Shown here piece by piece: positions 29,074-57,329 of a DNA stretch of 64,000 nucleotides. The DNA lies in assembly GCF_023072595.1 (NCBI RefSeq), contig NZ_JALLGK010000001.1, positions 124,001 to 188,000 of the forward strand, in the 5' to 3' direction. The notes beneath the pieces are model-generated. The model saw only the letters and a list, made by a program, of their open reading frames with translations, was not told where the DNA came from and ran no database searches. A program made the position numbers and the translations under genes. The stretch comes from Streptomyces sp. XM4193. Its GTDB lineage: Bacteria; Actinomycetota; Actinomycetes; Streptomycetales; Streptomycetaceae. Positions within the stretch are counted from its first letter, which is position 1. Each line of letters opens with the position of its first letter.

Positions 29074-31107
<2,034 letters not shown>

Positions 31108-34323: not shown

Positions 34324-34336
34324 CTCCGGGTCGAAG

Positions 34337-35459: not shown

Positions 35460-35719
35460 CCGGCCGCCGCGAAGCGGTTGCCGTCCGTGCCCCCGCGCCG
35501 ACGCCGCCCGCCCGGACCGGCGTGCGCGCAGGTGGCGTCGGCACAGGTGGCGCCGGCGCGGACGGAGGCAGCGGACACGCATCCGTGACGGACAGCACGT
35601 GGTCCGTTCTGTCGGGACAGATCCCCGAGCGCCGCGCCGCCACGTACTCTGGACCCGGCGCGACCGGCGCGCTCGGCGATCACCACGGGCGGCGAGTGAA
35701 AGGACGGACGGGGTAGCTC

Positions 35720-35881: not shown

Positions 35882-35935
35882 CGCGCGGGTGCGCGCCGGC
35901 GGCACGGACCGGACCGACAGGGGAAGACAGCCCAG

Positions 35936-38214: not shown

Positions 38215-38281
38215 CCCCGGCGAAAGCGGCAGACGGACCGGCGGCACGACAGCGCGCTCAGTCAACGGTGGGAGTGGAACA

Positions 38282-42028: not shown

Positions 42029-42130
42029 GGCAACTCCTTGGTGGTCAATGCCTGTTCGGCCCCGTCAGTAGTGTTTTCAGTCTGTTGGTGGGCTTATGGC
42101 GGAGCAACGCGGAGCGGCAGACTCCGTCAA

Positions 42131-42196
42131 GTCACGCCGTCGGGCACCAGGAGTCACGCCGTCGGGCACCAGGAGTCACGCCGTCGGGCACCAGGT
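42131..42196. repeat. Three 22-bp direct repeats spanning the kinase stop codon
   Basis: Copies begin at 42131, 42153 and 42175 with core CACGCCGTCGGGCACCAG. The third copy encodes the last residues and stop of the kinase; the other two are noncoding duplicates downstream of it. Confidence 0.9.
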
Positions 42197-43258
42197 CCAC
42201 AGCGCCCCGGCCCGCACCTCCAGGGTGGCGCGGTCGCCGAGCGTGTCCTGGTACTCGCCGTCGTGCTCCAGCGGCAGCCGCTCGCCGTCCAGCCGTTCGA
42301 CGACGATGGTCCGGCCGCGTGCGTAGACGGTGTCGGGCAGCTCCAGATGCGCGGCGGTCCGGGTCAGCTCGGGCACGCGGGAGGCGGCGACGGACCCGCC
42401 GATGACGCACACGTCCAGCAGCCCGTCGTCGGGCTCGGAGTGCGGGAGCACGAGGTACTGGCCGCCCCGGTAACGGCCGCCGCCCACGTTCGCCAGCACG
42501 GTCGGCCCCTCGTGGACCACCTCGCCGTCCACGGTGACCCTTCCCGGGTAGGGCCGGTGGGCGTCGGCCGCGCGGGCGAACGCCTCGGCGTACCGGGCGC
42601 GGCCGTGCAGCGGGACCGTACGGGCGATCGGCAGCGCCTCGGCGATCACACCGCTGCACGCGCCCAGGAAGACCAACTGCGCGGTTTCGCGCAGCAGCGC
42701 GAGGTCCAGCCGCCGAAGCCGGGCCCGGTCGCCGGGGTGGCTCAGCAGGGCGGTGAGCGCCTCCTCCCAGGGACGGTCGCCCCAGATCATGCGGTAGCCG
42801 GAGTTGCCGGTGCCGCCCGGCACCAGGGCCAGAGCCGCGGGCGCGGGCGCGTCGGCCATGCCCTGGACGACCTCGCGCACGGTGCCGTCCCCGCCGACCG
42901 CGACCACCAGATCGGGGCGGACCTCGTCGGACCGCACGGCGGTCCCGTCGGAGTGTGCGGCGGTCGCGTTCGCGCGCACGACCTCCGGCGCGTACGGGGC
43001 GTAGGGGCGGCGCAGCGCACGGCCGACGGCGTCCGTGGCGTCGCGGCGGGCGGTGGTGAGGTGGACCTCCACCGCGTCGAGCCGGGCCGCGCACAGTTCC
43101 CGCACCTCGCGCAGCAGTGCCTCGCTGTGGCTCCCGGAGGCGGGATTGGCCACGATGAGGGCGCGGGTGGGCCTCGCACCCGGTGAGCCGGTGTACGCGG
43201 CGGCGGGTGGGGCGAGAGTGGCCGGAGCGGGCCCCGACCGGGTGGCCGTGGTGTCCAT
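42176..43258 (-). CDS. Diacylglycerol-kinase-family enzyme, VlmJ-like
   Basis: 360 residues. DAGK catalytic fold: ALIVANPASGSHSEALL, the nucleotide motif AVGGDGTVREV (about 125-135) and PGGTGN, then a C-terminal beta domain. In valanimycin biosynthesis the DAGK-like VlmJ phosphorylates the serine-derived hydroxyl of valanimycin hydrate before elimination. That role is inferred here because a VlmK-like PrpD gene, a DUF2156 transferase and a SARP are nearby. A generic lipid kinase is the alternative. ATG at 43258 follows GAGGAG and lies 81 bp after the tRNA-like array, same strand. Confidence 0.78.
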   Translation of the reverse strand: MDTTATRSGPAPATLAPPAAAYTGSPGARPTRALIVANPASGSHSEALLREVRELCAARLDAVEVHLTTARRDATDAVGRALRRPYAPYAPEVVRANATAAHSDGTAVRSDEVRPDLVVAVGGDGTVREVVQGMADAPAPAALALVPGGTGNSGYRMIWGDRPWEEALTALLSHPGDRARLRRLDLALLRETAQLVFLGACSGVIAEALPIARTVPLHGRARYAEAFARAADAHRPYPGRVTVDGEVVHEGPTVLANVGGGRYRGGQYLVLPHSEPDDGLLDVCVIGGSVAASRVPELTRTAAHLELPDTVYARGRTIVVERLDGERLPLEHDGEYQDTLGDRATLEVRAGALWTWCPTA

Positions 43259-43339: not shown

Positions 43340-43432
43340 CGGAGAGGGCAGGATTCGAACCTGCGAGGGCCATGAAGACCCGACCAAGTGCAAAGCACCC
43401 GGACCCCGTTGGGCCGCTTCGGGTACCTCTCC
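43340..43432 (-). tRNA. tRNA-Ser-like gene, copy 1 (abnormal anticodon arm)
   Basis: 93 nt. The acceptor GGAGAGG pairs fully with CCTCTCC, the discriminator is G73, the D-arm is CCCG/CGGG with a GG-containing loop, the variable arm is long (GGGTC/GGCCC) and the T-arm is GCAGG-TTCGAAT-CCTGC. These match serine identity elements (G1-C72, G2-C71, A3-U70, long extra arm, G73). The anticodon arm does not fit 5 bp plus 7 nt. The best fold is CCGGGT/ACTTGG around GCTTTGC, with C instead of U33 and a formal UUU triplet. CCA is not encoded. Nearest copy to the kinase gene. Confidence 0.75.
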
Positions 43433-43449
43433 CCATCGACCGGAAGGAG

Positions 43450-43542
43450 CGGAGAGGGCAGGATTCGAACCTGCGAGGGCCACGAGGACCCGACCAAGTG
43501 CAAAGCACCCGGACCCCGTTGGGCCGCTTCGGGTACCTCTCC
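43450..43542 (-). tRNA. tRNA-Ser-like gene, copy 2 (abnormal anticodon arm)
   Basis: Identical to copy 1 except in the variable-arm loop, which reads CTCGT instead of TTCAT; the paired bases are unchanged. The 17-bp spacers between copies are also near-identical, so the array arose by tandem duplication of a 110-bp unit. Same aberrant anticodon arm. Confidence 0.75.
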
Positions 43543-43559
43543 CCATCGACCGGAAGGAG

Positions 43560-43652
43560 CGGAGAGGGCAGGATTCGAACCTGCGAGGGCCATGAAGACC
43601 CGACCAAGTGCAAAGCACCCGGACCCCGTTGGGCCGCTTCGGGTACCTCTCC
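43560..43652 (-). tRNA. tRNA-Ser-like gene, copy 3 (promoter-proximal, abnormal anticodon arm)
   Basis: Same sequence as copy 1. Its 5' end is about 35 nt downstream of the expected start site of the SARP-type promoter at 43695-43736. The order promoter, three tRNA-like units, kinase suggests one precursor transcript processed by RNase P and 3' trimming. Confidence 0.75.
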
Positions 43653-43694: not shown

Positions 43695-43736
43695 ACTCTG
43701 CCGGGGTGTGCTGACGTCCCCCTGACACCTCTCTGA
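43695..43736 (-). promoter_or_regulatory. SARP-type promoter of the tRNA-like array and kinase
   Basis: On the minus strand: TCAGAGA (43730-43736), TCAGGGG (43719-43725) and TCAGCAC (43708-43714), exactly 11 bp apart, then 7 bp and CAGAGT (43695-43700) as -10. Heptamer direct repeats at 11-bp spacing abutting the -10 are the classical binding layout of SARP activators. The rest of the 43653-43978 gap shows no other clear signal. Confidence 0.75.
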
Positions 43737-43978
43737 CCCGGGTGCGGACGCCGTACGCCCGTACGGAGATACGCGCCGGGCGTACGCCGGGGCGGACGCT
43801 GCGTGGCTCTGCGACCGGTCCGCGCCCCACTACCTCGTCAGGTCGGCCGGACGGCTCCGCACGGCGTACCGGGCACGACGAACGCGGCCGGCGGACACCT
43901 GACGAAGTCACCGCAATGCGGTAAGTCGCCCATCTGTGACGAAGCACTCTGGTAAGCCGTTCGAACGGGGAGGCTTCT

Positions 43979-44782
43979 GTGCTGAACTTCGAGATCTTGG
44001 GCGGCGTGCAGGTGCACACACCCAGTGGCGTGCACAAAGTGAGCGGACAGTCCAGGCGGGTCCTGTTGCAGGCCCTCCTGGTGAGCGAAGAGCACACGGT
44101 GGGCCACGGCGCACTGATCGAGGAGCTGTGGGGCGAGGACGTGCCGAACGGTGTCGTCAACGCGTTGCAGGCCCACATCAGCAGACTGCGCAAGTGGCTC
44201 CGCTCGATAGACGACGGTTCCAGCGGCGTACAGCTGCTGAGCTACGCGCATGGATACCAACTGTCCCTGGGCAGAGCCCGGTTGGACGCCACGGACTTCG
44301 GCTCGGCGATCGCCCGCGGCGTGGAGCTCGCGGCGGACGACCCGGCCGACGCGGTCAGGACGCTGAGAGCCGCCCTGCGGATGTGGCGCGGACCGGTCTT
44401 CGGCGGCGACTGCGGAGGGCTGATGTGCGAGTGCGCGGCAACCCGTTTCAACGAACTGCGGTTGCAGGGGCTGGAGTCGCTCTTCGACGCCGAGCTCGCC
44501 CTGCGCAGGGAGGGCCAGTTGCTGGGCGAGCTGAACCAGGCCCACCGGGAGAACCCGCTGCGCGAGCGCTTCTGCGGGCAGCTGATGATCGCGCTCTACC
44601 GGTCGGGCCGACAGGCGGAGGCGCTGGAGGTCTACCACCGCACGCGCCGCCGGCTCAGCGACGAACTGGGCATCGACCCGACCCCCGAACTGCGGAAGCT
44701 GGAGGAGTGCATCCTCCAGCACGCGCCCCAGCTGCGGCACGTCGAGTCCGAACTGACGCTGCTCTCCGCCCGCCTGGCGTGA
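43979..44782 (+). CDS. Small SARP-family pathway activator (VlmI-like)
   Basis: 267 residues. N-terminal OmpR-like winged helix (about 1-95: LNFEILGGVQVHTPSG, VNALQAHISRLRKWL) and bacterial transcriptional activation domain (about 105-255: LRAALRMWRGP, QAEALEVYHRTRRRLSDELG). No ATPase part, so ActII-ORF4/DnrI size. It probably activates the TCAG-heptamer promoters at 43695, 46646, 48556 and 62198. GTG at 43979 follows GGGGAGG. Divergent from the tRNA-like array. Confidence 0.92.
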   Translation: MLNFEILGGVQVHTPSGVHKVSGQSRRVLLQALLVSEEHTVGHGALIEELWGEDVPNGVVNALQAHISRLRKWLRSIDDGSSGVQLLSYAHGYQLSLGRARLDATDFGSAIARGVELAADDPADAVRTLRAALRMWRGPVFGGDCGGLMCECAATRFNELRLQGLESLFDAELALRREGQLLGELNQAHRENPLRERFCGQLMIALYRSGRQAEALEVYHRTRRRLSDELGIDPTPELRKLEECILQHAPQLRHVESELTLLSARLA

Positions 44783-44921: not shown

Positions 44922-45104
44922 GGACGCCGTGTGCGCGAAGCCGCGCGCGGACGGCGTGTGCGCGAAGGCGCGCGCGGACGCCGCGTGCGCGAAGGCGCGC
45001 GCGGACGCCGCGTGCGCGAAGGCGCGTGCACGGAACGCCGCGTGCGCGAAGGCGCGCGCGGACGCCGCGTGCGCTAAGGCGCGTGCACGGAACGCCGCGT
45101 ACGG
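44922..45104. repeat. About 6.5 copies of a 27-29-bp tandem repeat
   Basis: Units start at 44922, 44949, 44976, 45003, 45032, 45060 and 45089, with core GGACGCCGCGTGCGCGAAGG. Some copies have a 1-2 nt insertion, so the tract is not selected as coding. It lies between two strong hairpins and is therefore probably not transcribed. Confidence 0.88.
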
Positions 45105-45512: not shown

Positions 45513-46511
45513 TCAGAAGGCGTTGGCTGCGCGGAAGATGTGGGCGAAGGCGCCGAGGTCGGCGCGGCCCTGGAAAGCGACGTACTCGGGGAGCACCGCG
45601 TGCGGTGCCCACTTCTCCTTGTAGGAGAGCTGGGTCCGGGCGGGGTAGACCGCCTCGCCGTTCTCCCAGAGCCAGTGCATGAACCACTGGAACGCGCTGC
45701 TGCGGCCCGGGAGTTCGTGCTCCTCGGCCAGCCCGGTGAACGGGGTGAAGCCGAAGTGCAGCCACGGGACGCCCTCCGTGCGGAAGACCTCGATGGCGGT
45801 GGAGTTGATGGCCTCCATGACACCGGGCGGGCCCTCGGGCACTCGTCGGCTGAGGTCGTGCATCCAGCCCTGTCTGCTGCCGAAGACCGGCGAGTAGGAG
45901 ATGTAACCGATCGGCCGGCCCTCGATGCTGCCGAGGAACAGCCGGCGTTCGGCCTGTGCCCGGCCGCCGGTCTGTCCGACCAGGAACTCCAGCGGGCGGG
46001 CGGCCTCGCCCTTGGTGCCGAGCCAGGCCGCGTCGATCTCGGCGACCGCCTCGGCGTGGGCTTCCAGGTCCACCTCGGTGACCTGCAGTCCGGCCCGGAA
46101 GGAGCGGGAGATCTTGTTGCGCAGCTGCATGAAGCGGGTGCCGCGCAGGGTGAACCTCTCCAGGTCCACGGCGTACGAGGCGCCGACCTGGTTCACCGTG
46201 AAGCCGTGGCGGACGTACAACTCCGCGTCCTCGCGGGCGAGTTGTACGCCGACGACGGTCGCCGAACGCTCCCGGGCGTGGCCGAGGAACTCGTGCAGCA
46301 GCTCCGCACGGTCCCCCTCGGCCGCGAAGGGGCCGCCGAGCTGGACCAGGAAGCGGCCCGCCGCGCGGTAGCTGATCACCCCGTCCAGATGCGGGCGGCC
46401 GAACGACGAGGTGCCCTCGTTGAGCGCCAGGAAGGAGCTCGGATTGTCCGCTCCCGTATGGGCGCCGATGGCTTCCCGTATTTCCTCGAAGTTTGCTGTC
46501 GCGACCTGCAT
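45513..46511 (-). CDS. DUF2156/MprF-type aminoacyl-tRNA-dependent transferase, VlmA-like
   Basis: 332 residues, about the size of the MprF C-terminal catalytic domain: two GNAT-like halves with RNKISRSFRAGLQVTEVD, RRLFLGSIEGRPIGYISYSP, DLSRRVPEGPPGVMEAIN and WLHFGFTPFTGL. MprF domains take an amino acid from aminoacyl-tRNA. In valanimycin biosynthesis VlmA moves serine from seryl-tRNA to an alkylhydroxylamine, and the same role is inferred here. No membrane flippase part, so it is not a lipid-modifying MprF. ATG at 46511 follows GAAGAGGA; 46553 is an alternative. Confidence 0.78.
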   Translation of the reverse strand: MQVATANFEEIREAIGAHTGADNPSSFLALNEGTSSFGRPHLDGVISYRAAGRFLVQLGGPFAAEGDRAELLHEFLGHARERSATVVGVQLAREDAELYVRHGFTVNQVGASYAVDLERFTLRGTRFMQLRNKISRSFRAGLQVTEVDLEAHAEAVAEIDAAWLGTKGEAARPLEFLVGQTGGRAQAERRLFLGSIEGRPIGYISYSPVFGSRQGWMHDLSRRVPEGPPGVMEAINSTAIEVFRTEGVPWLHFGFTPFTGLAEEHELPGRSSAFQWFMHWLWENGEAVYPARTQLSYKEKWAPHAVLPEYVAFQGRADLGAFAHIFRAANAF

Positions 46512-46645
46512 GGCGTTCCTCTTCCCGGCCGGCACCACATGAGCTGTAAGCCTCATTGAATTCGCCTTCAGTGCCGAGCAGTAGAGCACCGAAGAATTCC
46601 GCCGACAAGACCCAGCTGACGAAGTATCGAGAAATCAATTCCCTG

Positions 46646-46687
46646 TCAGGGGCGCGTAAGCGACGAGTCAGCGCGAGCCCCAAACCT
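46646..46687 (+). promoter_or_regulatory. SARP-type promoter of the PrpD-like gene
   Basis: TCAGGGG (46646), TAAGCGA (46657) and TCAGCGC (46668) at 11-bp spacing, then 7 bp and AAACCT (46682-46687) as -10. Same geometry as at 43695, 48556 and 62198. On the opposite strand a weaker set (TCGATAC, TCAGCTG, TTGTCGG, period 11) might serve the divergent transferase gene. Confidence 0.65.
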
Positions 46688-46758
46688 TGCGTTGCGCACG
46701 CCGCGACCGGGCGACGCGCTCCTGCCTGACCGCCAAGGCCCGAGAGGGGCGTTACGTC

Positions 46759-48309
46759 GTGGCCAAACTGCTGGGAACCGGTGTGGTGCACGCGCTGTGC
46801 GCGGAGTGGGGGGCACCCGTCGAGGCGCCGCCGCCGGACGCCGGGCCCGCGCTGCACACCATGGCCGCCTGGGGCTCGGAGCTGCGGCCCGAGACCATCC
46901 CCTGCCGGGTGCTGAAGCTGGCGGCCAGCCAGGTCCTGTCGCAGATCGCCGCGGTGCGCGCCGGCTCGGCGCACCCGCTCGGCCGGCGCCTGCTCCAGGC
47001 GTTCGGCGACCCGCTGGGCGAGGATCCGCGGATCTCCGCCGGGGTACTGGCCGGCCTGGGCTCCTGGCTCAACCTGGACGACACGGCGTACGCCGGTCAT
47101 CTGTCGAACTCCACCGTCGCCGTACCGCTGGCGTACGCGCACGCCTACCGCCTGGACGGCCTCTCGCTGCTCACCGCGGTGGTGGCGGCGAACGAGTGCG
47201 CCTCGCGGATCACCGCCGCCGCGACGCTCGGTCCGCTGCGCGGGCAGAGCGCGGTGCACACCCATCTCGCCGGTGCGGTGGCGGGCCGGCTGGCCTGCGA
47301 GGGCGCGACCACGAGCGTGTGGGAGAACGCGCTCGGACTCGCCCTCGGAATGCCCAACTGGCCGCTCATGCGCGCCTTTCTGGCCAGCGACGCCCGACTG
47401 CTGAACACCTTCACCCCGGTCCGTACGGCGATGGACGCCTGCGACGCCGCACGGGCCGGACTGCTGGGCGCCTCCGACCTGATCGAGCACCCGGACGGCT
47501 TCCTCGCGCGCTTCGCGACCGTGCCCCTGCCCGACGCCGCCACCGCGGGACTGGGCCGGCGCTGGCACACCGAGACGCTCTCGTTCAAGATGCACCCCGG
47601 CGGGCCCGGCATCGACGCCGCGGTGGACTGCGCCGCCGAGATCCACCGGGCGCTCGGCCCGGTCGCGCCGGAGGACGTGCGGGAGGTCGTGGTCGAGGCC
47701 TCGGTGTACACGCTGTTCGCCGGCAAGCACGCGGAGCGGTACGTGACGGGGCCCGGCTCGCCGCAGGGCGCGCTGGTCCTGCACGTCCCCTACCCGGTGG
47801 CCACGACCCTGCTGAACGGCGAGTTCACGGTCGACGACCTCGCCGCACCCGCCACCGACGACGCCCGGCGGTGGGCGTTGGCCGACCGGGTCCGGCTGGT
47901 CCACGACACCGAGATGACCCGGGAACTGCTGCGCTCGGACGCGCCGTTCGGCGAGGCGGTGCGGCAGGCGGGCGCCGCGGGACGCGGCTGGCTGCGGGAC
48001 TTCGGCGGCGATCGGCTGGTCGAACTGGCCGACCACCGCGAGCCGTTCAACCGGGACTTCGCCAGCTCGACCAAGTCCACCGGGGCCCGTGTCACCGTGC
48101 GTCTGACCGACGGGCGCAGCTTCACCCGCGAACGCCTCATCCCGCTGGGCGCCGCCGGCCAGGACACCAGATCGCACCATCCTCGGCTGGTGCGCGAGAA
48201 GTTCGTCTCGCTCGGCGGCCCGGCCTCGGTCGCGAACGAGGCGTCGAGGCTGCACCGGATGCGGCCCGAGGAGCTGCGCCGCTGGATAGAGGCGGCACTG
48301 CGCACCTGA
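46759..48309 (+). CDS. MmgE/PrpD superfamily lyase, VlmK-like
   Basis: 516 residues. MmgE/PrpD fold: HLSNSTVAVPLAYAHA, TAVVAANECASRITAAA, the all-helical domain 1, and a smaller domain (about 290-420) around LSFKMHPGGPGIDAAVDCA. Family members are dehydratases (2-methylcitrate, cis-aconitate) or, for VlmK, eliminate phosphate from phosphorylated valanimycin hydrate to form the double bond. With a DAGK-like kinase in the cluster, a kinase-lyase dehydration is inferred. GTG at 46759 is chosen for GAGAGGGGC 9 nt upstream. Confidence 0.85.
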   Translation: MAKLLGTGVVHALCAEWGAPVEAPPPDAGPALHTMAAWGSELRPETIPCRVLKLAASQVLSQIAAVRAGSAHPLGRRLLQAFGDPLGEDPRISAGVLAGLGSWLNLDDTAYAGHLSNSTVAVPLAYAHAYRLDGLSLLTAVVAANECASRITAAATLGPLRGQSAVHTHLAGAVAGRLACEGATTSVWENALGLALGMPNWPLMRAFLASDARLLNTFTPVRTAMDACDAARAGLLGASDLIEHPDGFLARFATVPLPDAATAGLGRRWHTETLSFKMHPGGPGIDAAVDCAAEIHRALGPVAPEDVREVVVEASVYTLFAGKHAERYVTGPGSPQGALVLHVPYPVATTLLNGEFTVDDLAAPATDDARRWALADRVRLVHDTEMTRELLRSDAPFGEAVRQAGAAGRGWLRDFGGDRLVELADHREPFNRDFASSTKSTGARVTVRLTDGRSFTRERLIPLGAAGQDTRSHHPRLVREKFVSLGGPASVANEASRLHRMRPEELRRWIEAALRT

Positions 48310-48462: not shown

Positions 48463-48555
48463 CGTTTCCGGTGCGCGGCGGAACCGGGAATTCACTTCCA
48501 TTCACACCGGCCGCGCTCCGGGTTTTCTCCCGACCGATTACCGAATCCATTCGAG

Positions 48556-48597
48556 TCAGAACCGCGTCAGTCGGTCGTCAGATTCTTTTGACACGGT
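48556..48597 (+). promoter_or_regulatory. SARP-type promoter of the 10-gene operon
   Basis: TCAGAAC (48556), TCAGTCG (48567) and TCAGATT (48578) at exact 11-bp spacing, a 7-bp gap and CACGGT (48592-48597). The start site would be near 48604, about 40 nt before the aldehyde dehydrogenase gene. It is the clearest of the four sets on the plus strand. Confidence 0.82.
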
Positions 48598-48645: not shown

Positions 48646-50316
48646 ATGTTTCCGAAAGGGAATACCACGCTCGCAGCTGCGGAAAGCGGTGTGACCGCGC
48701 CGGAGCCGACCTCGCAGGAACGCGAGAGGCCGCTGCTCAGCTACCAGTCCTATGTGGGTGGCGAGGATCTGCCCAACAGCGCCTGGGTGTACACGATCAG
48801 CTCCCGCTCACTCCTGGAGGACGTCTTCACCGGCGTCTCGCTCAAACGGGAGCTGGAGCAGAACCCGCAGTCCGAGGCGGCGGAGCACCCGTACGTGGTC
48901 GGGCGGGTGGCCGTCGCGACCGACGAGGAGAACGACCGGGCGCTGGAGGCCGCGGCCGAGGCGGCACCGGTGTGGGCCGCGGTCCCGCTGGACGAGCGGA
49001 TGCGTCTGGGAGAGCTGTTCCGCGAGGCGCTGCTGGAGCACCGCCAGGAGTTCCTGGACATGCTCGTCGCCGAGGCGCACCCGCTCAAGCTCGCCCGCTG
49101 GGAGCTGAGTTGCCTGCTGGAGGTCTACAGCAGGGAGAACTGCCACTGGTACCGCAAGCGGATGTACTCCGAGTGCTCCTACGCCGGCCGCACGCTCATC
49201 TCGCACCGGCAGCCCGACGGGGTCGTCTGCTTCAACCCGCCGCAGAACGCGCCCGCCCCCAGCGCCGCACTCGCCGTCCTGGCGCTGATGGCCGGCAACG
49301 CGGTGGTCGTACGGGCGCCGCGCAGCATCCCGCTCAGCACCATGTTCGTGCTGCGCGACATCGTCGCCCCGCTGCTGGAGAAGGTCGGCGCCCCGCCCGG
49401 CACCCTCAACGTGGTCTGCGGCAACGCCCGCAGCACGATGGACAAGTGGGTGAGCAGCCCGCTGGTCGACGACATCTTCTACATCGGCGGCAGCGACCAG
49501 GGACTGCGCTTCCAGGAGCAGTGCATCGCGGCCGGCAAGAAGCCGATCCTCGAACTGGCCGGCAACGACACGATCGTCGTCTGGAAGGACGCCGACCTCT
49601 CGCTCGCCGCGGAGGCGATCACCGAGTCGTTCTACGGCTCGGGGCAGATCTGCATGGTGCCCAACACCGTGCTCGCCCATCCGGAGATCGTCGAGGAGCT
49701 GATCGGGCATGTGAAGGAGAAGATCCGCGGCATCCGGCCCGGCTTCCCCGAGGACCCCGACGTACTGCTGTCCCCGGTGCGGCGCAGCGAGAAGTTCTTC
49801 GGGCTGCTGTCCCAGGCGCTGGAGGAGGGCGCCGAGCTCGTGTGCGGCGGCCACCGCATGGAGGTGGACGGGACGCGCTCGGACACCGGCGTGTTCCTGG
49901 AGCCGACCGTGCTGCGGGTGGACGGGCTGGAGCGCGGTCGGCGCATCGAGGCGGTCATGCAGGAGACGTTCTTCCCGCTGCTGCCCATCGTCGCGGTCGA
50001 GCCGGCGCCCGCCGAGGAGCTGCGCGAGACGTTCGTGCGGTTCGTCAACGCCAACGCCTACGGCCTGCGCAACTCGCTGTGGTCCAGGTCGCCGCGGGTC
50101 ATCAACACCTTCGTCAGCCGCACCACCAACGGCGGCCTGCTGAAGGTCAACGACTCGCACATCGGCTTCCTGCCCTATCTGCCGAGCCACGGCGGCACCG
50201 GGATGACCGGCGGCGTGTTCGGCGAGGCCAACTACCCGATGTTCAAGACCTCGCATCTGCAGGGCGTGAGCATCAGCGAGGGCATCAGCCCCTACCGCGC
50301 GGTCTTCGGCGACTGA
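48646..50316 (+). CDS. Aldehyde dehydrogenase-family protein (possible acyl reductase)
   Basis: 556 residues, longer than usual because of about 60 extra N-terminal residues. ALDH core with catalytic C336 in GSGQICMVPN and general base E303 in LELAGND; the NAD-fold region VVVRAPRSIPLSTMFV is present. First gene of an operon ending with KAS II. In this setting it may run as an acyl-thioester reductase giving an aldehyde for the transaminase encoded two genes on; direction is inferred. ATG at 48646 follows GAGGAGG. Confidence 0.8.
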   Translation: MFPKGNTTLAAAESGVTAPEPTSQERERPLLSYQSYVGGEDLPNSAWVYTISSRSLLEDVFTGVSLKRELEQNPQSEAAEHPYVVGRVAVATDEENDRALEAAAEAAPVWAAVPLDERMRLGELFREALLEHRQEFLDMLVAEAHPLKLARWELSCLLEVYSRENCHWYRKRMYSECSYAGRTLISHRQPDGVVCFNPPQNAPAPSAALAVLALMAGNAVVVRAPRSIPLSTMFVLRDIVAPLLEKVGAPPGTLNVVCGNARSTMDKWVSSPLVDDIFYIGGSDQGLRFQEQCIAAGKKPILELAGNDTIVVWKDADLSLAAEAITESFYGSGQICMVPNTVLAHPEIVEELIGHVKEKIRGIRPGFPEDPDVLLSPVRRSEKFFGLLSQALEEGAELVCGGHRMEVDGTRSDTGVFLEPTVLRVDGLERGRRIEAVMQETFFPLLPIVAVEPAPAEELRETFVRFVNANAYGLRNSLWSRSPRVINTFVSRTTNGGLLKVNDSHIGFLPYLPSHGGTGMTGGVFGEANYPMFKTSHLQGVSISEGISPYRAVFGD

Positions 50317-50519: not shown

Positions 50520-51668
50520 ATGCGCACTCTCGACAACGCCCGCGACACCTGTGACCGGCTGCATCCCGGTCTGTGCAAGGCACTTGACGCCATCCCGTTC
50601 GCCGAGCGGGAGAGCCCCGGCGACGGGGGAAGCGCCGTGATCGACCTCTTCCGCCGGCACGACGGGGTCGGACTGCTCGTACCGACCGAGTACGGCGGGC
50701 ACGCGGCCGACCCGGTCGAGGCCGTACAGGTCATGCGGGCGCTCGGTTCCTACTCGCCCTCCCTCGCGGCCGGCACCGCCATGCACCACTTCACCGCCGC
50801 GATGCTGTTCTCGCTGGCGGAGACGGCCGGGCGGCTCACCGACGCGCAGAACGCGGTGCTGGCCGACGTCGTACCGGGCCGGCGGCTGATGGCCTCCGGC
50901 TGGTCCGAGGGGCGGACCGCTCAGAACATCCTCGCGCCCACGGTCAACGCCCGCCCGACCGAGGGCGGTTACCTGCTGAGCGGTGCCAAGAAGCCGTGCA
51001 GCCTGGCCCGTTCGATGGACCTGCTGACCGCCTCCACCGCCCTGCCCGGCCCGAACGGCGCACCGGGGCTGGCACTCGCGCTCGTCCCCGCGGACTCGCC
51101 GGGCATCTCGGTGCACCCCTTCTGGGGGAACGAGGTGCTGGCCGCCGCGGAGAGCGACGAGGTGCGGCTGGAGGACGTGTTCGTCCCCGAGGACCTGCTC
51201 GTGACGACCACCGAGGACGATCCGACCCGGCTCGACGATCTCCAGACCGCCGGTTTCGTCTGGTTCGAGCTGATCATCTCCTCCTGCTACGCCGGTGCCG
51301 CCGCCGCTCTGGTGGAGGAGGTGCTGCGGCGCGGCAGGGGCCCCAGCACCGAGCGCGCCCAGCTCGCCGTACGGTCCGAGGCCGCGTTCGCCCTGCTGGA
51401 GGGCGCCGCCCGGGCGGTGCGGGACGGTCTGGCCGGCGAGGAGGCGGTGGCCGCGGTGCTGGTCGCCCGGTACGCCGCGCAGGAGTCGATGGCCGCCGTC
51501 GCCGACCAGGCGCTGGAGCTGCTGGGCGGCATGGACTTCATCCAGTCCTCCGACCACTCCCGACTCGCCCGCGCCGTACGGCCGTTGGCGTTCCACCCGC
51601 CGTCCAGGGTCGCCGCCGCGGAGCCGCTGCTCGGCTGGTTCGCCGGCGGATCGCTCGAACTGGCCTGA
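50520..51668 (+). CDS. Acyl-CoA-dehydrogenase-fold flavoprotein, probable amine N-hydroxylase (VlmH-like)
   Basis: 382 residues. ACAD fold: VGLLVPTEYGGHAADPVEAV, the flavin/substrate loop MASGWSEG, and a C-terminal helical bundle with ALELLGGMDFIQ. The segment that normally carries the catalytic Glu (YEGT-like, near the end) reads AFHPPSRV, so ordinary dehydrogenation looks unlikely. VlmH, the isobutylamine N-hydroxylase, belongs to this superfamily and uses reduced flavin from VlmR; a reductase is encoded four genes on. Confidence 0.75.
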   Translation: MRTLDNARDTCDRLHPGLCKALDAIPFAERESPGDGGSAVIDLFRRHDGVGLLVPTEYGGHAADPVEAVQVMRALGSYSPSLAAGTAMHHFTAAMLFSLAETAGRLTDAQNAVLADVVPGRRLMASGWSEGRTAQNILAPTVNARPTEGGYLLSGAKKPCSLARSMDLLTASTALPGPNGAPGLALALVPADSPGISVHPFWGNEVLAAAESDEVRLEDVFVPEDLLVTTTEDDPTRLDDLQTAGFVWFELIISSCYAGAAAALVEEVLRRGRGPSTERAQLAVRSEAAFALLEGAARAVRDGLAGEEAVAAVLVARYAAQESMAAVADQALELLGGMDFIQSSDHSRLARAVRPLAFHPPSRVAAAEPLLGWFAGGSLELA

Positions 51669-51774: not shown

Positions 51775-53091
51775 GTGACCACGTTTCCCGAAGCACCGGA
51801 ACTGCCGCGCCTCGGTGACCCGCCGCGCGGCGCGGACACCGAGGCGGAGATCCTCGGCCTCTACCGGGCACACCTCAGCAAGGGCCGGGCGACCCTGGCC
51901 GAACTCTTCGGCAGCCACATGGAGATCGCCTCCAAGGGCGCCTGGCTGCACACCAGCGACGGCGAGCGCTTCCTGAACGCGGGCGGCTACGGCGTCTTCC
52001 TGATGGGCGCCCGGCACCCGCTGGTGGTCGAGGAGGTGCAGCGCCAGCTCACCACCCATCCCACCGCCACCCGGATCCTGCTGGAGCCCACGGTCGCCCG
52101 CGCCGCCGAGGCGCTGGTCTCCACGCTGCCCGAGCAGCTGGACCGTGTGCACTTCGGCCTCTCGGGCGCGGAGGCGGTGGAGACCGGTCTGAAGCTGGCC
52201 CGGGCCAACGGCCGCCGGCGCATCGTCTCGATGGAGAAGGGCTACCACGGCAAGACGATGGGCGCCCTGACGGCGACCGCCAAGGAGGTCTACCAGAAGC
52301 CCTTCCGGCCGCTGCTGCCCGACGCCGTCCACCTTCCGTTCGGCGACGCCGAGGCGCTGGAGCGCGAACTGGCCGCGCACCCGGGCGAGTGCTGCGTGAT
52401 CCTGGAGCCGGTCCAGGGCGAGGGCGGCGTGATCCTCCCGCCGCGCGGCTACCTCACCAGGGTCGCCGAACTCGTGAAGGAGTACGAGGGGTTCCTGATC
52501 CTGGACGAGGTCCAGTCCGGGATGGGCCGCCTCGGCGAGTGGTGGGGCGCCGACTTCGAGGGCGTCGTGCCGGACGTGCTGCTCGCCGGCAAGGCGCTGG
52601 GCGGCGGCGTCGCCCCGGTGTCGGCGGCCATCGCCACCCGGCAGGCGTTCCGCCCGTTCGACAAGGACCCCTACGTCCACACCGCGACCTTCTCCGGGCA
52701 GCCGCTGCTGATGGCCGCCGTCCAGGGCGCGATCCGGGCGATCCAGGAGGACCGCCTGGTCACCAGGGCGATGGATCTGGGCGCGACGCTGCTGCCGCGC
52801 ATCAGGGAGATCGCCGAACGCACCATCCCCGACCTGGTGGTGGAGGTGCGCGGCCAGGGCCTGTTGATCGGCGTCGAGCTGATCGAGGGCGGTCTGGCCG
52901 GTGAACTGCTCATCGAGCTGTTCAACAACGGAGTCGTTGCCAACCACTCGATGAACGGCAGCACGGTCGTGCGGTTCACCCCGCCCGCGACGCTGACCGA
53001 CAACGAGGTGGAGCACCTGCTCGGCTCCTTCGAGAAGGCCTGCCGCGACCTGGTCGCCGGCAAGGCCACCATGCCGAAAAACGTGAGGTGA
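51775..53091 (+). CDS. Class III PLP aminotransferase
   Basis: 438 residues, full length. GAEAVETGLKLARANGRRRI, LILDEVQSGMGR and the PLP lysine K273 in AGKALGGG are the class III hallmarks. Probably aminates an aldehyde to a primary amine, consistent with the reductase-like ALDH upstream. GTG at 51775 follows AGAAGGAG. The stop overlaps the SRPBCC gene (GTGA). Confidence 0.92.
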   Translation: MTTFPEAPELPRLGDPPRGADTEAEILGLYRAHLSKGRATLAELFGSHMEIASKGAWLHTSDGERFLNAGGYGVFLMGARHPLVVEEVQRQLTTHPTATRILLEPTVARAAEALVSTLPEQLDRVHFGLSGAEAVETGLKLARANGRRRIVSMEKGYHGKTMGALTATAKEVYQKPFRPLLPDAVHLPFGDAEALERELAAHPGECCVILEPVQGEGGVILPPRGYLTRVAELVKEYEGFLILDEVQSGMGRLGEWWGADFEGVVPDVLLAGKALGGGVAPVSAAIATRQAFRPFDKDPYVHTATFSGQPLLMAAVQGAIRAIQEDRLVTRAMDLGATLLPRIREIAERTIPDLVVEVRGQGLLIGVELIEGGLAGELLIELFNNGVVANHSMNGSTVVRFTPPATLTDNEVEHLLGSFEKACRDLVAGKATMPKNVR

Positions 53092-53594
53092 GCACGGTGC
53101 GTCATGTGGAACTCGAAGCCCAGGTGCACGGCGAGAGCGCCGAGCACGTCTTCGACAACATCCTGCGGTGGGACCGCTATCCCGAACTCGCCCCGCACGT
53201 GCGGGAGACGACCGTTCACAGCACGCTGCCCGACCCCAGGGGCAGCTCCAGCTGGGCGCTGCACTTCCGCAGCGGGCTGCTGCGCTGGACGGAGGACGAG
53301 ACCTTCGACCGGGAGAAGCTGCGGATCGGCTTCTCCCAGTCCGACGGGGACTTCGACGAGTTCTCCGGGACCTGGCAGATCGAGCAGCAGGGCGACGATG
53401 TGGGCGTCCGCTTCTCCTGCGAGTTCGACTTCGGCATCCCGAGCCTGGAGTCCATCCTCGACCCGATCGCCCAGCGCGTCATCAGGGAGACCATCGCCTG
53501 GGCGGTGACCGGGCTGTTCGAGAAGGTCGAGCTGCTCGGCGAGATCGAGCTGCCGGCGACCGCGGCCCCGAGCGCGACATCCGGCGAGGGCTGA
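53088..53594 (+). CDS. SRPBCC/polyketide-cyclase-like protein
   Basis: 168 residues with the START/Coq10 helix-grip fold: VFDNILRWDRYPELAPHVRE, FRSGLLRWTEDETFD and an amphipathic C-terminal helix. It could bind the hydrophobic alkyl intermediate or act as a cyclase/dehydrase; no catalytic residues can be named. Couplings on both sides show it is made with the aminotransferase and membrane protein. Confidence 0.82.
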   Translation: MSTVRHVELEAQVHGESAEHVFDNILRWDRYPELAPHVRETTVHSTLPDPRGSSSWALHFRSGLLRWTEDETFDREKLRIGFSQSDGDFDEFSGTWQIEQQGDDVGVRFSCEFDFGIPSLESILDPIAQRVIRETIAWAVTGLFEKVELLGEIELPATAAPSATSGEG

Positions 53595-53597: not shown

Positions 53598-54215
53598 ATG
53601 GACCAGCGCAACGTCTTCGACACCCCGGTCACCGCACGTCTGCACCGGGCCGAGTACCTGCTCGCCTTCGCCGTCACCACGGGATTCGCCGTCGCGCACT
53701 TCGACGAGATCCGCTGGCCGGTGGCGATCGCGCTCTTCCTCTACATCGACCTCATCGGCTACATACCGGGCGCGATCGCCTACCACCGCAGCCGCACCAA
53801 ACAGATCCACAAGGCGTACTACGTCCTCTACAACACGATGCACAGCCTGCTCACGCAGGCTGCGGTGATCGGGCTGTGGTGCCTGTTCGTCGGGCCCGAG
53901 TGGGCGCTGCTGGCCATTCCGTGGCATCTCTTCGGCGACCGCGGGCTGTTCGGCAACTTCCTCAAGCCCTTCGGCCTGCACTTCGAGCCGGTCGTCGACC
54001 CCCGCTTCAACCAGCTCCTGGACGAGGTGGCCGCCCGTTCGGGCCGTGCCGGCGTCGCCCCGGACCCGCTGCCGCCCGTGGAGTCCGCACCGGACGGCGA
54101 GGGCGGTACGGAGTCCGGCAAGGAGTCGGGATCGGCCGCTTCGCCGGGCCGCGGCGGCGCACCCGGGAGCGACGCGCCGCGGGTGCCGGCCGCGGTGACG
54201 GGCGCGGAGTCGTGA
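53598..54215 (+). CDS. Histidine-containing integral membrane protein, VlmO-like candidate
   Basis: 205 residues: three or four hydrophobic segments (about 20-34, 41-61, 84-98, 100-112), then a 75-residue disordered tail. H34, H63, H71, H82, H110 and D114 (in GAIAYHRSRTKQIH, NTMHSL and PWHLFGDRG) cluster at membrane edges and could bind metal. In the valanimycin pathway the membrane protein VlmO turns an O-seryl hydroxylamine into a hydrazine (N-N bond). Position between SRPBCC and flavin reductase and the histidines suggest this role; homology needs testing. Confidence 0.6.
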   Translation: MDQRNVFDTPVTARLHRAEYLLAFAVTTGFAVAHFDEIRWPVAIALFLYIDLIGYIPGAIAYHRSRTKQIHKAYYVLYNTMHSLLTQAAVIGLWCLFVGPEWALLAIPWHLFGDRGLFGNFLKPFGLHFEPVVDPRFNQLLDEVAARSGRAGVAPDPLPPVESAPDGEGGTESGKESGSAASPGRGGAPGSDAPRVPAAVTGAES

Positions 54216-54946
54216 GCACCCAGGCGGCGCCGGCCCGTCCGCAGGCGGTCCGCCGGAGGAACGCGGTGCTGCGTTCGCTGGCCTCCGGCGTCGCCGTGCT
54301 CACCGTCCGCAGCGGGGACCGGATGCACGGGACCACGGTCTCCACGCTGACCTCGGTCTCCCGCAAGCCGCTGATCATCGGTGTCTGTCTGCGGCCGGGA
54401 TCGGCCATGGCCGATCTGGTCCGCACCGAGGAGCGGTTCGTCGCCAACGTGCTGAGCGGCGAACAGCACGCGCTCGCCCGCTGGTTCGCCAACCGGGACC
54501 GGCCCGAGGGCGCGGCCCAGTTCGACGGGGTCGACTGGATGCCGGGCTCGCGGGCCGCCGGCGGCGCTCCGCTGCTGGACGGCGCGGTGGCCCAGCTGAC
54601 CTGCCGGCTGAGCAGCTGTGTGCCGGTCGGCGACCACGAGGTGCTGCTCGGACTGGTCACCGAGGCGACCGCCAACGGCGGTGAACCGCTGCTGAGTTAC
54701 GCGGGCGCACTGCACGCCCCCGCGCTGTACGACCCGGCGAACGCGCTCCCGGCCTCCGCACTGCCGGCCGTCGCATCCCCCGCCACCCCGGCCGGGGCCC
54801 CGGCGCTGACCGCACCGACGCTGCCCGCTGCCGCGCCGTACGACCCGACCGGGCTGCCGCCGACCGCGGGCGCCGCCCGGGCGAGCGCCACCGCCGGCAC
54901 CCCCGTACCGAGCATCGCCGCAGGCGAGGAAGGTAAGAATCGATGA
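54212..54946 (+). CDS. Flavin reductase (VlmR/HpaC-like) with C-terminal tail
   Basis: 244 residues. Flavin reductase-like split barrel (about 15-165): NAVLRSLASGVAVLTV, HGTTVSTLTSVSRKPLIIGV, FVANVLSGEQ. The last 75 residues are Ala/Pro/Thr-rich. It should supply FADH2 or FMNH2 to the N-hydroxylase encoded at 50520. GTGA overlap with the membrane gene; ATGA overlap with the diiron gene. Confidence 0.9.
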   Translation: MSTQAAPARPQAVRRRNAVLRSLASGVAVLTVRSGDRMHGTTVSTLTSVSRKPLIIGVCLRPGSAMADLVRTEERFVANVLSGEQHALARWFANRDRPEGAAQFDGVDWMPGSRAAGGAPLLDGAVAQLTCRLSSCVPVGDHEVLLGLVTEATANGGEPLLSYAGALHAPALYDPANALPASALPAVASPATPAGAPALTAPTLPAAAPYDPTGLPPTAGAARASATAGTPVPSIAAGEEGKNR

Positions 54947-55923
54947 ACACGCCCGTCGCGCACGAAGCCGACTTCGACACCGCACCAGGGCTGCTGGACG
55001 GTGCCAAGACCCTGGAACTGACCGCCGAACGCTGCGATCTCGCCTACTGGTTCACCGAGGTGGCCCAGGGCACCCTGCGCGGACGCGGGGTCAGCGGGCA
55101 CACCGGGGACGCCGAGATCCCCGCGTTCATGAAGGAACCCGGACCGCTGCGCGAGGCCATGGTGCTGGAGCTCGGCTACCGCTCGCTGGCGGAGGAGATC
55201 GCCACCCGGCTGCTGGCGCACTACGTCGACCGCGCGCCCGGCATCCCGGAGATGGAGTTCTACGCGACCCAGATGATCGACGAGGCGCGGCACGCCCGCG
55301 TCTTCCGCAACCACCTGGTCGAACTGGGGATGCCGGAGAAGACCCTGGTCGCCGACATCGAGGAGATGGCCGCCGACTACCGTCGCCGAGTGCTCGCACC
55401 GGTCGAGGAGTTCACTCTCGACATCGTGCGCGACCAGGGCGACTTCGCCGGCGGCGTGGCGGTCTTCACCATCGTCATCGAGGGGGTGCTGGCCCCCGCG
55501 GCGGAGCTGAGCGAGCGCAAGTGGGACCGGCTCGACCCGGCCGCGGCCGAGCTGTCCCGCACCGCGGCGATCGACGAGATCCGCCACCTGGCGGTCGGCA
55601 GCTCGCTGATGCGGGACCATCTGATCGCCCACCCCGAGTACCGGCCGCGGCTGATGGAGATCCTGCGCGCCGGACGGGAGTTGTGGGACCGGGTGCCGGA
55701 CAGGGAGTTCGTCCTGCACCGCGAGGAGCTGTTCCAGCAGGGCATGGAGCAGCACGCGGACGCGGTCGGCGACTACGAGGTGTGGCCGGGCCGAAAGATG
55801 CTCGACACCACGCCCGAGGAGCGCTACGACACGGCCGAGCGCTGGACCGACGAGATGGCCGAGGTCCGGATGGAGTACATGGGCCTGGCGGACGCCGTCG
55901 GCATTCTCTCCGGACAGGGCTGA
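54943..55923 (+). CDS. Ferritin-like diiron oxygenase, VlmB-like candidate
   Basis: 326 residues, mostly helical. Two E-x-x-H pairs, E114/H117 in DEARHAR and E212/H215 in DEIRH, plus earlier and intermediate Glu residues (SLAEEIATRLL, VIEGVLAP) give a diiron site of the AurF/ferritin-like type. The valanimycin enzyme VlmB is a non-heme diiron protein that oxidises the N-N bond to azoxy; the same is inferred here. An alternative is a simple N-oxygenase. Confidence 0.72.
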   Translation: MNTPVAHEADFDTAPGLLDGAKTLELTAERCDLAYWFTEVAQGTLRGRGVSGHTGDAEIPAFMKEPGPLREAMVLELGYRSLAEEIATRLLAHYVDRAPGIPEMEFYATQMIDEARHARVFRNHLVELGMPEKTLVADIEEMAADYRRRVLAPVEEFTLDIVRDQGDFAGGVAVFTIVIEGVLAPAAELSERKWDRLDPAAAELSRTAAIDEIRHLAVGSSLMRDHLIAHPEYRPRLMEILRAGRELWDRVPDREFVLHREELFQQGMEQHADAVGDYEVWPGRKMLDTTPEERYDTAERWTDEMAEVRMEYMGLADAVGILSGQG

Positions 55924-55933: not shown

Positions 55934-56989
55934 GTGTCGAACAGCGAGGCCCCGCCCGGCCGTTGGCCCGGGCCCGCGCCGGGCCGGTCCGCCGTACTGG
56001 CCGGGCTGGGCGGCTGGGTCCCCCCGCGGCGGGTGACCAACGCCGAGCTCAGCGCCCGGCTGGACACCTCGGACAGCTGGATCCGCTCCCGCACGGGCAT
56101 CGCCACCCGGCACGTCGTCGCACCCGGCGACGCGACCTCGGACCTGGCCGTGGAGGCCGGGCGGCTGGCACTGAAGTCGGCCGGCCGGGCGGACGGCGAG
56201 AACGGCGCGGACGCGGTGGTGCTGGCCACCACCACTCCGGACCGGCCGTGCCCCGCCACCGCCCCCGAGGTGGCCGACCGGCTCGGCCTCAACGGCAGCG
56301 CCGCCTTCGACGTCTCGGCCGTGTGCACCGGTTTCCTCTACGCCCTGGCGGCCGGCCAGGGGTTGATCGCGGCCGGTACGGCGGAGCGGGTCCTGGTGAT
56401 CGGTGCGGACGCCTTCACCACGATCATCGACCCGCAGGACCGCGGTACGGCCGTGATCTTCGCCGACGGCGCGGGTGCCGTCGTGCTGCGGGCGGGGCGG
56501 CCGGACGAACCCGGGGCTCTGGGGCGGGTCTTCCTGGGCAGCGACGGCAGCCGGTCGGAGCTGATCCAGGTACCGGCCGGCGGCTCCCGCCAGCGCTCCA
56601 CCGGGGTGCCCGCGCCGGAGAGCGACACCTACTTCCGGATGAGCGGGCAGCAGACGTTCCGACAGGCGGTGGAACGCATGTCCGCCGTCTCCCGGCAGGC
56701 CGTCGGCTCCGCCGGCTGGCGGCTGGCGGACGTCGACCGGGTCGCCGCGCACCAGGCCAACGCCCGGATCCTGGGCGCGGTCGGCGAGGAACTGGGCCTG
56801 CCCGAGGACCGGTTGCTCTCCAACATCGAACACGTGGGCAACACCGGCGGGGCCAGCATCCCGCTGCTGCTGCACCACTCCCACGCCGACCGCTCGCTCC
56901 GGGCGGGCGACCGGCTGCTGCTCACCGCGTTCGGCGCGGGGCTCGCCTGGGGCGCCACCACGGTGGTCTGGCCCGACCTCCCGCACTGA
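55934..56989 (+). CDS. Beta-ketoacyl-ACP synthase III (FabH-like)
   Basis: 351 residues. Catalytic triad C131 (SAVCTGFLYAL), H273 (AHQANARI), N303 (GNTGGAS). It would start chain elongation from an acyl-CoA primer on the cluster's ACP. The N-terminal 20 residues are an extension. GTG at 55934 follows GAGGAGG. Confidence 0.93.
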   Translation: MSNSEAPPGRWPGPAPGRSAVLAGLGGWVPPRRVTNAELSARLDTSDSWIRSRTGIATRHVVAPGDATSDLAVEAGRLALKSAGRADGENGADAVVLATTTPDRPCPATAPEVADRLGLNGSAAFDVSAVCTGFLYALAAGQGLIAAGTAERVLVIGADAFTTIIDPQDRGTAVIFADGAGAVVLRAGRPDEPGALGRVFLGSDGSRSELIQVPAGGSRQRSTGVPAPESDTYFRMSGQQTFRQAVERMSAVSRQAVGSAGWRLADVDRVAAHQANARILGAVGEELGLPEDRLLSNIEHVGNTGGASIPLLLHHSHADRSLRAGDRLLLTAFGAGLAWGATTVVWPDLPH

Positions 56990-57050
56990 CGACCCGTCCG
57001 AGACCCCCGGCAGTCCCGGCTGCTCCGGCCGGCCGGCACGAACCGCCGAC

Positions 57051-57082
57051 CCATCCGTCCATCCGTCCATCCGTCCATCCGC
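57051..57082. repeat. 8-bp tandem repeat upstream of the ACP gene
   Basis: About four copies of CCATCCGT between KAS III and the ACP ribosome site. Could form no stable hairpin; function unclear. Confidence 0.85.
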
Positions 57083-57098
57083 ACCGAAGGAGATCGAC

Positions 57099-57329
57099 AT
57101 GTTCGAAACGCTCAAGGACATCCTGGTCAACAAGTTGAAGGTGTCGCCCGACACGATCACGGCCGAGGCCACGCCCGAGGAGATCGACCTGGACTCGCTG
57201 GCCATCGTCGAGCTGTCCCTCGTGCTGGAGAAGGAGCTCGGGCTCACCGTGTCCGAGGACGAGCTCAGCGAGGCCGAGACCGTGGGAGACATCGTGCGTC
57301 TCATGGACGAGCGGAGTGCCAGGGTCTGA
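57099..57329 (+). CDS. Acyl carrier protein
   Basis: 76 residues, acidic four-helix ACP. Phosphopantetheine site S33 in DLDSLAIVE. Carries the growing acyl chain between KAS III, KAS II and probably the reductase. ATG follows GAAGGAG; TGATG overlap with KAS II. Confidence 0.95.
   Translation: MFETLKDILVNKLKVSPDTITAEATPEEIDLDSLAIVELSLVLEKELGLTVSEDELSEAETVGDIVRLMDERSARV

Follow-up and report, generated by a model that had tools for sequence, protein, structure and literature searches.

What are three serine-tRNA-like genes with no normal anticodon arm doing inside an apparent antibiotic cluster? The question is raised by an array on the minus strand of the window, the stretch of 64,000 nucleotides from Streptomyces sp. 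XM4193 that was analyzed here, and an earlier note on this DNA had proposed that the array supplies dedicated serine carriers to a VlmA-like transferase encoded nearby. Sequence comparison strongly supports the proposal, a VlmA relative being present in 36 of 36 genomes that hold full-length relatives of the RNA and in 50 of 50 genomes that were chosen by the RNA and searched. We put at roughly 0.87 the probability that the array RNAs, which lack a normal anticodon arm, are private serine carriers for azoxy-compound synthesis, acting by the steps proposed below.

The array consists of three 93-nt units with a 110-bp period, as described from the letters alone; Tandem Repeats Finder reports a period of 110, 2.9 copies, and 98% matches. 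In reading direction, the first unit (43560..43652, minus strand) has a hairpin in place of the anticodon arm and scores 98.4 bits with a covariance model of the family; the third unit (43340..43432, minus strand) is identical to it and scores the same, and the middle unit (43450..43542, minus strand; 97.8 bits) differs from both at RNA positions 57 and 60, in the loop of the variable arm. The spacers between units are 17 bases each and have the same sequence. Units 1 and 3 are folded by RNAfold as a cloverleaf with a 7-bp acceptor stem, a 4-bp D stem, a 5-bp variable arm, and a 5-bp T stem, so the four arms called intact in the earlier note are predicted to form; the anticodon arm is replaced by a hairpin of 8 bp (CCGGGUGC/GCACUUGG) whose loop is UUU. 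The energy of this cloverleaf is -46.4 kcal/mol (z -3.1; none of 200 shuffles as good). The lowest-energy fold of the middle unit is not the cloverleaf (-45.5 versus -45.1 kcal/mol, a gap of 0.4). The array is the only one found in its own genome.

ARAGORN labels all three window units tRNA-Ala (tgc), the tgc lying inside the hairpin stem and lacking U33; on related units its labels vary (Ala, Arg, Gln, Gly, Thr, His, Val, Ile, Met, Asp, Leu, Pro, once Ser, or "???"). A covariance-model search for tRNAs, one of the checks that had been suggested, was made with Rfam RF00005: none of the three units reaches the 29-bit gathering score, and the model does detect an ordinary tRNA-Leu in the window. 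The units share with canonical tRNA-Ser the 7-bp acceptor stem, the first pairs, G73, the long variable arm, and the G18-G19/T-loop core, and depart from it in the anticodon arm and in the RF00005 score. The G73 and serine-type first pairs previously reported are borne out by the genome's own four kinds of tRNA-Ser (GCT, TGA, CGA, and GGA), all of which have the same G1-C72, G2-C71, and G73; A3-U70 is common to three of the four. These four tRNA-Ser genes are complete, separate from the array, and equipped with normal 5-bp/7-nt anticodon arms with U33.

The lack of such an arm extends beyond the window. With five offsets tried, a 5-bp stem with a 7-nt loop and U33 is found at the standard place after the D stem in 0 of 207 distinct units, which agrees with what had been seen in the three units here; out of place, at any offset between the D and T stems, one is possible in 15 of the 207. 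The criterion accepts the ordinary tRNAs (Ser, Leu, and Tyr) encoded in the loci and the genome's own Ser and Leu tRNAs. The pattern used to select the 207 units holds most positions of the acceptor, D, and T regions constant and leaves the anticodon region free, so only the latter region is informative in this set. Their predicted hairpins end in tetraloops in 140 cases (GCAA 27, UUCG 19, and UCUG 17) and in triloops in 27.

Full-length relatives were found by nucleotide search in 36 of 297 Streptomycetaceae genomes; the search matched 51 genomes, of which 15 with partial matches only were dropped. After stricter filters the tally is 36 genomes with strong matches and 2 with weak ones (G041 and G120), with scoring confined to 14 candidates in each genome, so that a copy number of 14 is a minimum. 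Some genomes hold many copies, from 9 to at least 14 (at least 14 each in G163, G195, and G207). Dispersed units number at least 10 per genome in G102, G163, G173, G179, G195, and G207, several of them near chromosome ends, and no SerRS marker was found near VlmA in these genomes. One unit is located on plasmid pSGRIFU1 of Streptomyces griseofuscus DSM 40191 (L186, NZ_CP051007.1), with several more on the chromosome. A covariance model (R1) built from 61 units gives family units 75-106 bits and the ordinary tRNAs encountered 59 bits or less; two divergent copies score 61 and 53 bits. In a class-wide search with this model 29 of 394 genomes match, 25 of them at 59 bits or less, and ARAGORN calls tRNA-Ser for all 16 of the low-scoring matches that were checked. 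The family ranges from Streptomyces to Actinokineospora, Micromonospora, and Longispora.

Alignment A2 comprises 101 rows, including ordinary tRNAs and one fragment, and covariation was counted on all 81 distinct rows. In the anticodon-arm hairpin, each of the seven modelled pairs has both of its bases substituted somewhere, and none of 500 shuffles of the whole structure attains the observed covariation. Column identity averages 0.98 over the acceptor, 0.996 over the T arm, and 0.65 over the hairpin, so that the acceptor and T arms are 98-100% conserved and the hairpin sequence drifts; this count was made without seven rows lacking the GGA start or the T-arm core, a choice that favors those regions. 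Covariation, low hairpin identity, and a near-fixed body together suggest that the hairpin is kept as a shape and the tRNA body nearly letter by letter. The long variable arm is also retained (5 bp in the window; 92.4% of its A2 cells are paired), and G18, G19, T74, T75, C76, and A78 (numbered on the first sequence), the core for the L shape, are invariant in 61 of 61 rows.

The surrounding genes resemble those of azoxy-compound clusters. A VlmJ-like kinase with DAGK_cat and YegS_C domains (42176..43258, minus strand; Pfam PF00781, 5e-20, and PF19279, 2e-15) and a VlmK-like MmgE/PrpD protein (46759..48309, plus strand, within a longer open frame 46687-48309; PF19305, 4e-11, and PF03972, 3e-9) form the pair associated with the serine branch. 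Between them are a SARP-type activator (43979..44782, plus strand; Pfam BTAD, 2.6e-44, and Trans_reg_C, 7e-8) and a predicted aminoacyl-tRNA-dependent transferase (45513..46538, minus strand), recognized as VlmA-like from its LPG_synthase_C domain (1e-64) and its place in a tree of relatives from the genomes searched; its solved relatives are the alanyl- and lysyl-tRNA-dependent phosphatidylglycerol synthases 4v34 and 4v36. Further genes follow on the plus strand: an aldehyde dehydrogenase family protein (48691..50316; Aldedh, 3e-64), an acyl-CoA-dehydrogenase-fold protein (50520..51668) that is putatively VlmH-like by position, a class-III aminotransferase (51775..53091), a Polyketide_cyc/SRPBCC protein (53097..53594), a VlmO-like candidate (53598..54215) without a Pfam match, named by its conserved position beside VlmA in relatives, a clear flavin reductase of VlmR-like type (54266..54946; PF01613, 1e-32), a VlmB-like diiron oxygenase candidate (54943..55923) with weak AurF and R2lox matches, and genes for a KAS III, an acyl carrier protein, and a ketosynthase (55934..58549). 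A 27-bp GC-rich tandem repeat of about six copies (44922-45100) separates the SARP gene from VlmA, and three perfect copies of a 22-bp unit (42130-42195) overlap the 3' end of the VlmJ-like gene. The cluster adjoins core genes (23135-39565) for an FHA-domain protein, a PP2C phosphatase, a PASTA kinase, a rhomboid protease, and two sortases.

Presence of the RNA is tightly tied to presence of VlmA. A protein search found VlmA relatives in 52 of the 297 Streptomycetaceae genomes; the RNA and VlmA occur together in 36 genomes, VlmA only in 16, the RNA only in none, and neither in 245 (Fisher p 3e-34), and when weak copies are counted the RNA-only class becomes 2 and the last class 243 (p 2e-31). 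The two VlmA-less genomes concerned have one weak match each, a divergent copy whose D arm does not fold normally (G041) and a copy without its 5' end (G120). The same array in many streptomycetes lacking the cluster, which the earlier note had named as evidence against its proposal, was not seen, as 0 of 245 VlmA-less genomes have a strong match. Among genomes of a named collection that were selected solely for the RNA pattern, VlmA is present in 50 of the 50 searched, which are part of 73 organisms listed and include two Actinokineospora, one Micromonospora, and one Longispora; at least 120 stretches of this collection match the pattern, and VlmA itself is found within at most 8 kb in 29 of the 120 listed. 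In the class-wide sample VlmA occurs in 8 of 394 genomes. The only array of that sample outside the Streptomycetaceae (G555) lies on one contig with a VlmA of 61% identity and is preceded by GTCAG repeats; class-sample genomes with a more distant VlmA (44-48% identity; G328, G377, and G380) gave no array match.

The association can be narrowed to one lineage of the transferase. A tree of 57 of the 58 VlmA loci (G074, with VlmA in two pieces, was left out) contains one clade (100/97) of 38 in which an array is found within 30 kb for 34 and elsewhere in the genome for the remaining 4 (G173, G195, G011, and G197:C3); an array is near none of the 19 out-of-clade VlmA. Three genomes with an out-of-clade VlmA do have arrays (G020, G060, and G241), and each also holds an in-clade VlmA; in G060 and G241 the array adjoins the in-clade VlmA only. 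The VlmA match G197:C3:313354-314319 (L267) is inside a 1040-codon open frame and perhaps belongs to a fusion protein.

Cluster content divides along the same line. Among markers sought up to 25 kb from VlmA in fetched stretches, where absences are soft, VlmJ, VlmK, or SerRS is found in 25 of 38 in-clade clusters versus 0 of 19 outside, and a SARP gene in 33 of 38 versus 0 of 19; a thioester reductase like that of the out-of-clade locus L209 occurs in 13 of 19 outside and one inside, and a methyltransferase like that of L209 in 8 of 19 outside. The labels AdyRed, AdyMT, and AdyFAD, the first two denoting these reductase and methyltransferase markers, are our own and come from gene content; the L209 methyltransferase belongs to TIGR00027 and was taken as the Ady1 kind (PMC9379638). 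The marker split and the restriction of the RNA to one clade suggest that the serine-type RNA goes with serine-type chemistry. Because the array-bearing VlmA form one clade, the counts could be inflated by a single ancestral gain and faithful inheritance, and because SARP and cluster type track the same clade, the RNA might serve another step of the cluster; in 13 of the 38 in-clade clusters serine use is presumed, the region searched holding no serine marker.

The window array immediately precedes the VlmJ-like gene, which shares its strand, with 81 bp from unit 3 to the gene. This placement recurs in both clusters of G169, in one of which the array is also 192 bp from VlmA. In 19 of 34 near loci the array is on the opposite strand and points away from VlmA, 129-327 bp upstream of it. 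Altogether 94 arrays were seen, 41 within 30 kb of VlmA and 53 farther away or on another contig; the neighbors of these 53, taken from 48 loci, include no common family (at most 4 of 48 loci), and a link through the neighbors of far arrays was therefore dropped.

Upstream of the first unit in the window is a predicted operator of SARP type (43711..43737, minus strand), in which a motif scan finds three GTCAG direct repeats with an 11-bp period (43733-43737, 43722-43726, and 43711-43715); a possible -10 element, CAGAGT, can be read between operator and first unit (43695..43700, minus strand). SARPs are known to bind heptameric repeats whose unit is classically 11 bp long. For the SARP PapR2 the consensus is GTCAGSS (PMC7040171), and VlmI, the SARP of the valanimycin cluster, binds upstream of vlmJ and vlmA-vlmH (PMC10972967). 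GTCAG-type direct repeats (NTCAG-N6-NTCAG) stand upstream of 84 of 93 distinct arrays versus 23 of 1616 gene starts from a subset of the fetched loci, a post hoc count in that the repeats were spotted by eye and then counted in the same data, with gene starts and resampled sequence as controls; by the pattern used they are absent from 9 of the 93. The G555 array, from outside the Streptomycetaceae and checked later, carries them too. Near arrays have them in 35 of 40 cases and far arrays in 49 of 53, for which the resampled sequences, a first-order Markov draw and not an exact dinucleotide shuffle, give means of 0.14 and 0.39. Some relatives (uncounted) have strings resembling GGCAGAGT after the repeats. 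In a scan for -35/-10 promoters, none of 95 first units was preceded by one of TTGAC type, and none of 95 last units is followed by a TTTT run. Repeats at near and far arrays alike suggest, at the level of sequence, that even dispersed copies are tied to a SARP-type regulon.

Other sets of such repeats in the window are located upstream of the aldehyde dehydrogenase gene (48555..48581, plus strand), before 58910 (58605-58620, plus strand), and upstream of a P450 gene (62214-62240, minus strand), so the predicted SARP regulon may reach to about 62 kb of the window. Three divergent tRNA-like copies (L246:5000-5093, L065:3352-3445, and L081:10001-10095) share the middle string CGAGCAGG, which is also found in dispersed copies in G163 and Kitasatospora sp. 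MBT63. The copy in L246 (G041) keeps SARP-type repeats upstream, and a VlmA search found none in G041 or in G123, the source of L081. These copies may be remnants, or they may form a second subfamily with another partner.

A SerRS gene is found in 13 fetched array regions; identity to the window genome's housekeeping SerRS is only 35-40%, so these genes are presumably extra copies. The class-II core domain is present in all four that were checked, and the N-terminal domain is above the cut-off in two and below it in one, the fourth being a partial sequence. There is no second SerRS (VlmL) in the window cluster or its genome, which has one SerRS; the housekeeping enzyme would therefore charge the window units. 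That arrays substitute for a missing extra SerRS was considered and dropped, since 13 regions have both. Serine identity resides mainly in the variable arm and not in the anticodon, and most tRNA-Ser of bacteria retain the pairs G1-C72 and G2-C71 (PMC9976931). The T stem has A51-U63 in 77 of the 81 distinct A2 rows, some of which are ordinary tRNAs, versus G51-C63 in the genome's four tRNA-Ser; G49-C65 is present in 81 of 81 rows, and G18-G19 is invariant. A change from G51-C63 to A51-U63 is among the elements said to weaken binding of EF-Tu by the cell-wall tRNA-Gly of Staphylococcus aureus (PMC4052509). As no anticodon loop is predicted in the units, decoding should be barred.

These features can be assembled into a proposed route. 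The cluster SARP would bind the GTCAG repeats and turn on the array along with the pathway; the transcript is assumed to be cut to units and given CCA ends. SerRS, the housekeeping enzyme here and an extra, cluster-encoded one in some relatives, would charge the units through the variable arm, the first pairs, and G73. With a predicted structure that offers no anticodon loop, the charged units would be unreadable by ribosomes, and the near-invariant A51-U63 may weaken EF-Tu binding as well. The VlmA-like transferase would then move serine from the units to an alkylhydroxylamine, forming an ester, and by analogy with valanimycin, homologs of VlmO/VlmB and VlmJ/VlmK would complete the azoxy product.

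Four other explanations have to be set against serine donation. One is that the RNA is a pathway-linked regulator, a tRNA-like sensor, decoy, or leader that responds for example to the level of SerRS or governs vlmJ expression and donates no serine. Some pseudo-tRNAs do act in regulation, among them tRNA-Other of Bacillus cereus (PMC3399842), and the position of the array ahead of the VlmJ-like gene, seen in the window and for both clusters of G169, would suit a leader. The divergent orientation relative to VlmA in 19 of 34 near loci would not, nor would the far arrays, which have no recurrent neighbor family; and acceptor and T arms that stay almost fixed as the hairpin drifts fit a charged carrier better than a base-pairing regulator. 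We regard this explanation as improbable. Another is that the units are functionless, selfish or leftover tRNA copies, either integration-site duplicates or decaying tRNA-Ser genes. Their patchy distribution, the tandem and dispersed copies that reach at least 14 in G163, G195, and G207, and the weak matches of G041 and G120, which are divergent or truncated, are what such an origin might leave. A hairpin kept by compensatory changes in 7 of 7 modelled pairs, near-invariant acceptor and T arms, and repeats upstream of 84 of 93 arrays are not; no recurrent neighbor family accompanies the copies, and the RNA pattern has no match in a viral contig collection, which also leaves a phage origin unsupported. 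This makes functionless copies very improbable.

The units might also protect the producer, acting as decoys or spare acceptors against the azoxy compound that it makes or against an agent that damages tRNA. The location of the array inside a biosynthetic cluster is compatible with this, and an RNA without an anticodon would withstand anticodon nucleases. The restriction to one VlmA clade, the serine markers, and the occasional extra SerRS are explained by donation and not by protection, and the azodyrecin-type clusters seen are without an array; we give protection hardly any credence. Least credible of all, and rejected here, is that the units are ordinary decoding tRNAs of the tRNA-Ala (UGC) type, as the ARAGORN label has it: a normal anticodon arm is missing from the standard place in 207 of 207 units, RNAs that are otherwise similar have different supposed anticodons in different species, and the window units fall under the Rfam tRNA cut-off.

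If the units are indeed serine carriers, they would explain how such bacteria separate antibiotic from protein synthesis: the pathway would have a serine carrier of its own that the ribosome cannot read. It is quite probable that widespread, genome-encoded, anticodon-less tRNAs under the control of pathway activators are the antibiotic clusters' own seryl-tRNA currency and, in clusters with a dedicated synthetase, tRNA, and transferase, part of a full aminoacyl-tRNA economy kept apart from the genetic code. For genome mining, the RNA is also a sharp mark of such VlmA clusters (VlmA in 50 of 50 genomes searched), and the family has perhaps gone unnoticed because the two tRNA tools used, ARAGORN and Rfam RF00005, misname or miss its units. 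To our knowledge, there is no earlier case of a biosynthetic cluster encoding its own tRNA, nor of a chargeable tRNA gene family without any anticodon loop. That tRNAs can be set aside for non-ribosomal use is known in general. No cluster-encoded or anticodon-less tRNA of this kind was found in the literature searched, and none is described in the available text of reviews on aminoacyl-tRNA-dependent enzymes (PMC12945691), non-canonical tRNAs (PMC7609411), and N-N bond enzymes (PMC11705231); with the reservation that most subscription journals were outside coverage, we therefore take as new an anticodon-less tRNA family that is encoded and apparently regulated with antibiotic clusters. The statement in the earlier note that no natural-product cluster with such an array had been described holds for this literature, but such clusters do occur in nature.

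Among known systems, the valanimycin pathway of Streptomyces viridifaciens (VlmA, VlmL, VlmJ/VlmK, and VlmI) is similar in its Ser-tRNA-using transferase, its VlmJ/VlmK-type pair, and, through candidate genes in the window, its VlmH/R/B/O-like set (PMC4052509; PMC11705231), and in SARP control, predicted for the window, at vlmJ and vlmA (PMC10972967). It differs in that the donor is given as seryl-tRNA, with no cluster tRNA gene mentioned in the available text of these sources, and in having VlmL, which the window lacks; how Ser-tRNA is diverted from translation in that pathway is stated as unknown in PMC4052509. ElaO of elaiomycin is listed from Streptomyces atratus NRRL-16927 (PMC11705231). 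Azodyrecin clusters (Ady7 type) have in common with the window a VlmA homolog and azoxy chemistry, the latter predicted for the window, but alanine from the cellular tRNA pool is proposed for them (PMC9379638). The azodyrecin-like VlmA loci in our set have no array nearby, their likeness being judged from gene content.

Both tRNA-Sec and allo-tRNA have a 12-13-bp acceptor branch, of 8/5, 8/4, or 9/3 type, unlike the units here, which are 7/5 and have no anticodon loop. They are class-II tRNAs of unusual shape that accept serine, as the units are predicted to do, and are set apart by the longer acceptor branch and by decoding (PMC7609411; PMC7590224). The tRNA-Other of B. cereus is likewise a tRNA-like gene outside translation, but it keeps a Trp anticodon, is poorly aminoacylated, and is part of a larger regulatory RNA, and the available text mentions no biosynthetic cluster (PMC3399842). 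Also comparable are the non-proteinogenic tRNA-Gly of S. aureus, cell-wall glycine donors reserved for a non-ribosomal transferase and carrying A51-U63; they are isoacceptors with G18-G19 replaced and with A49-U65 (PMC4052509), unlike the units here, which keep G18-G19 and G49-C65. The amino acid, the host group, and the purpose also differ, and a corresponding use of the units is suggested by their linkage to VlmA. The S. aureus tRNAs keep an anticodon; in the units described here the anticodon arm is a plain hairpin.
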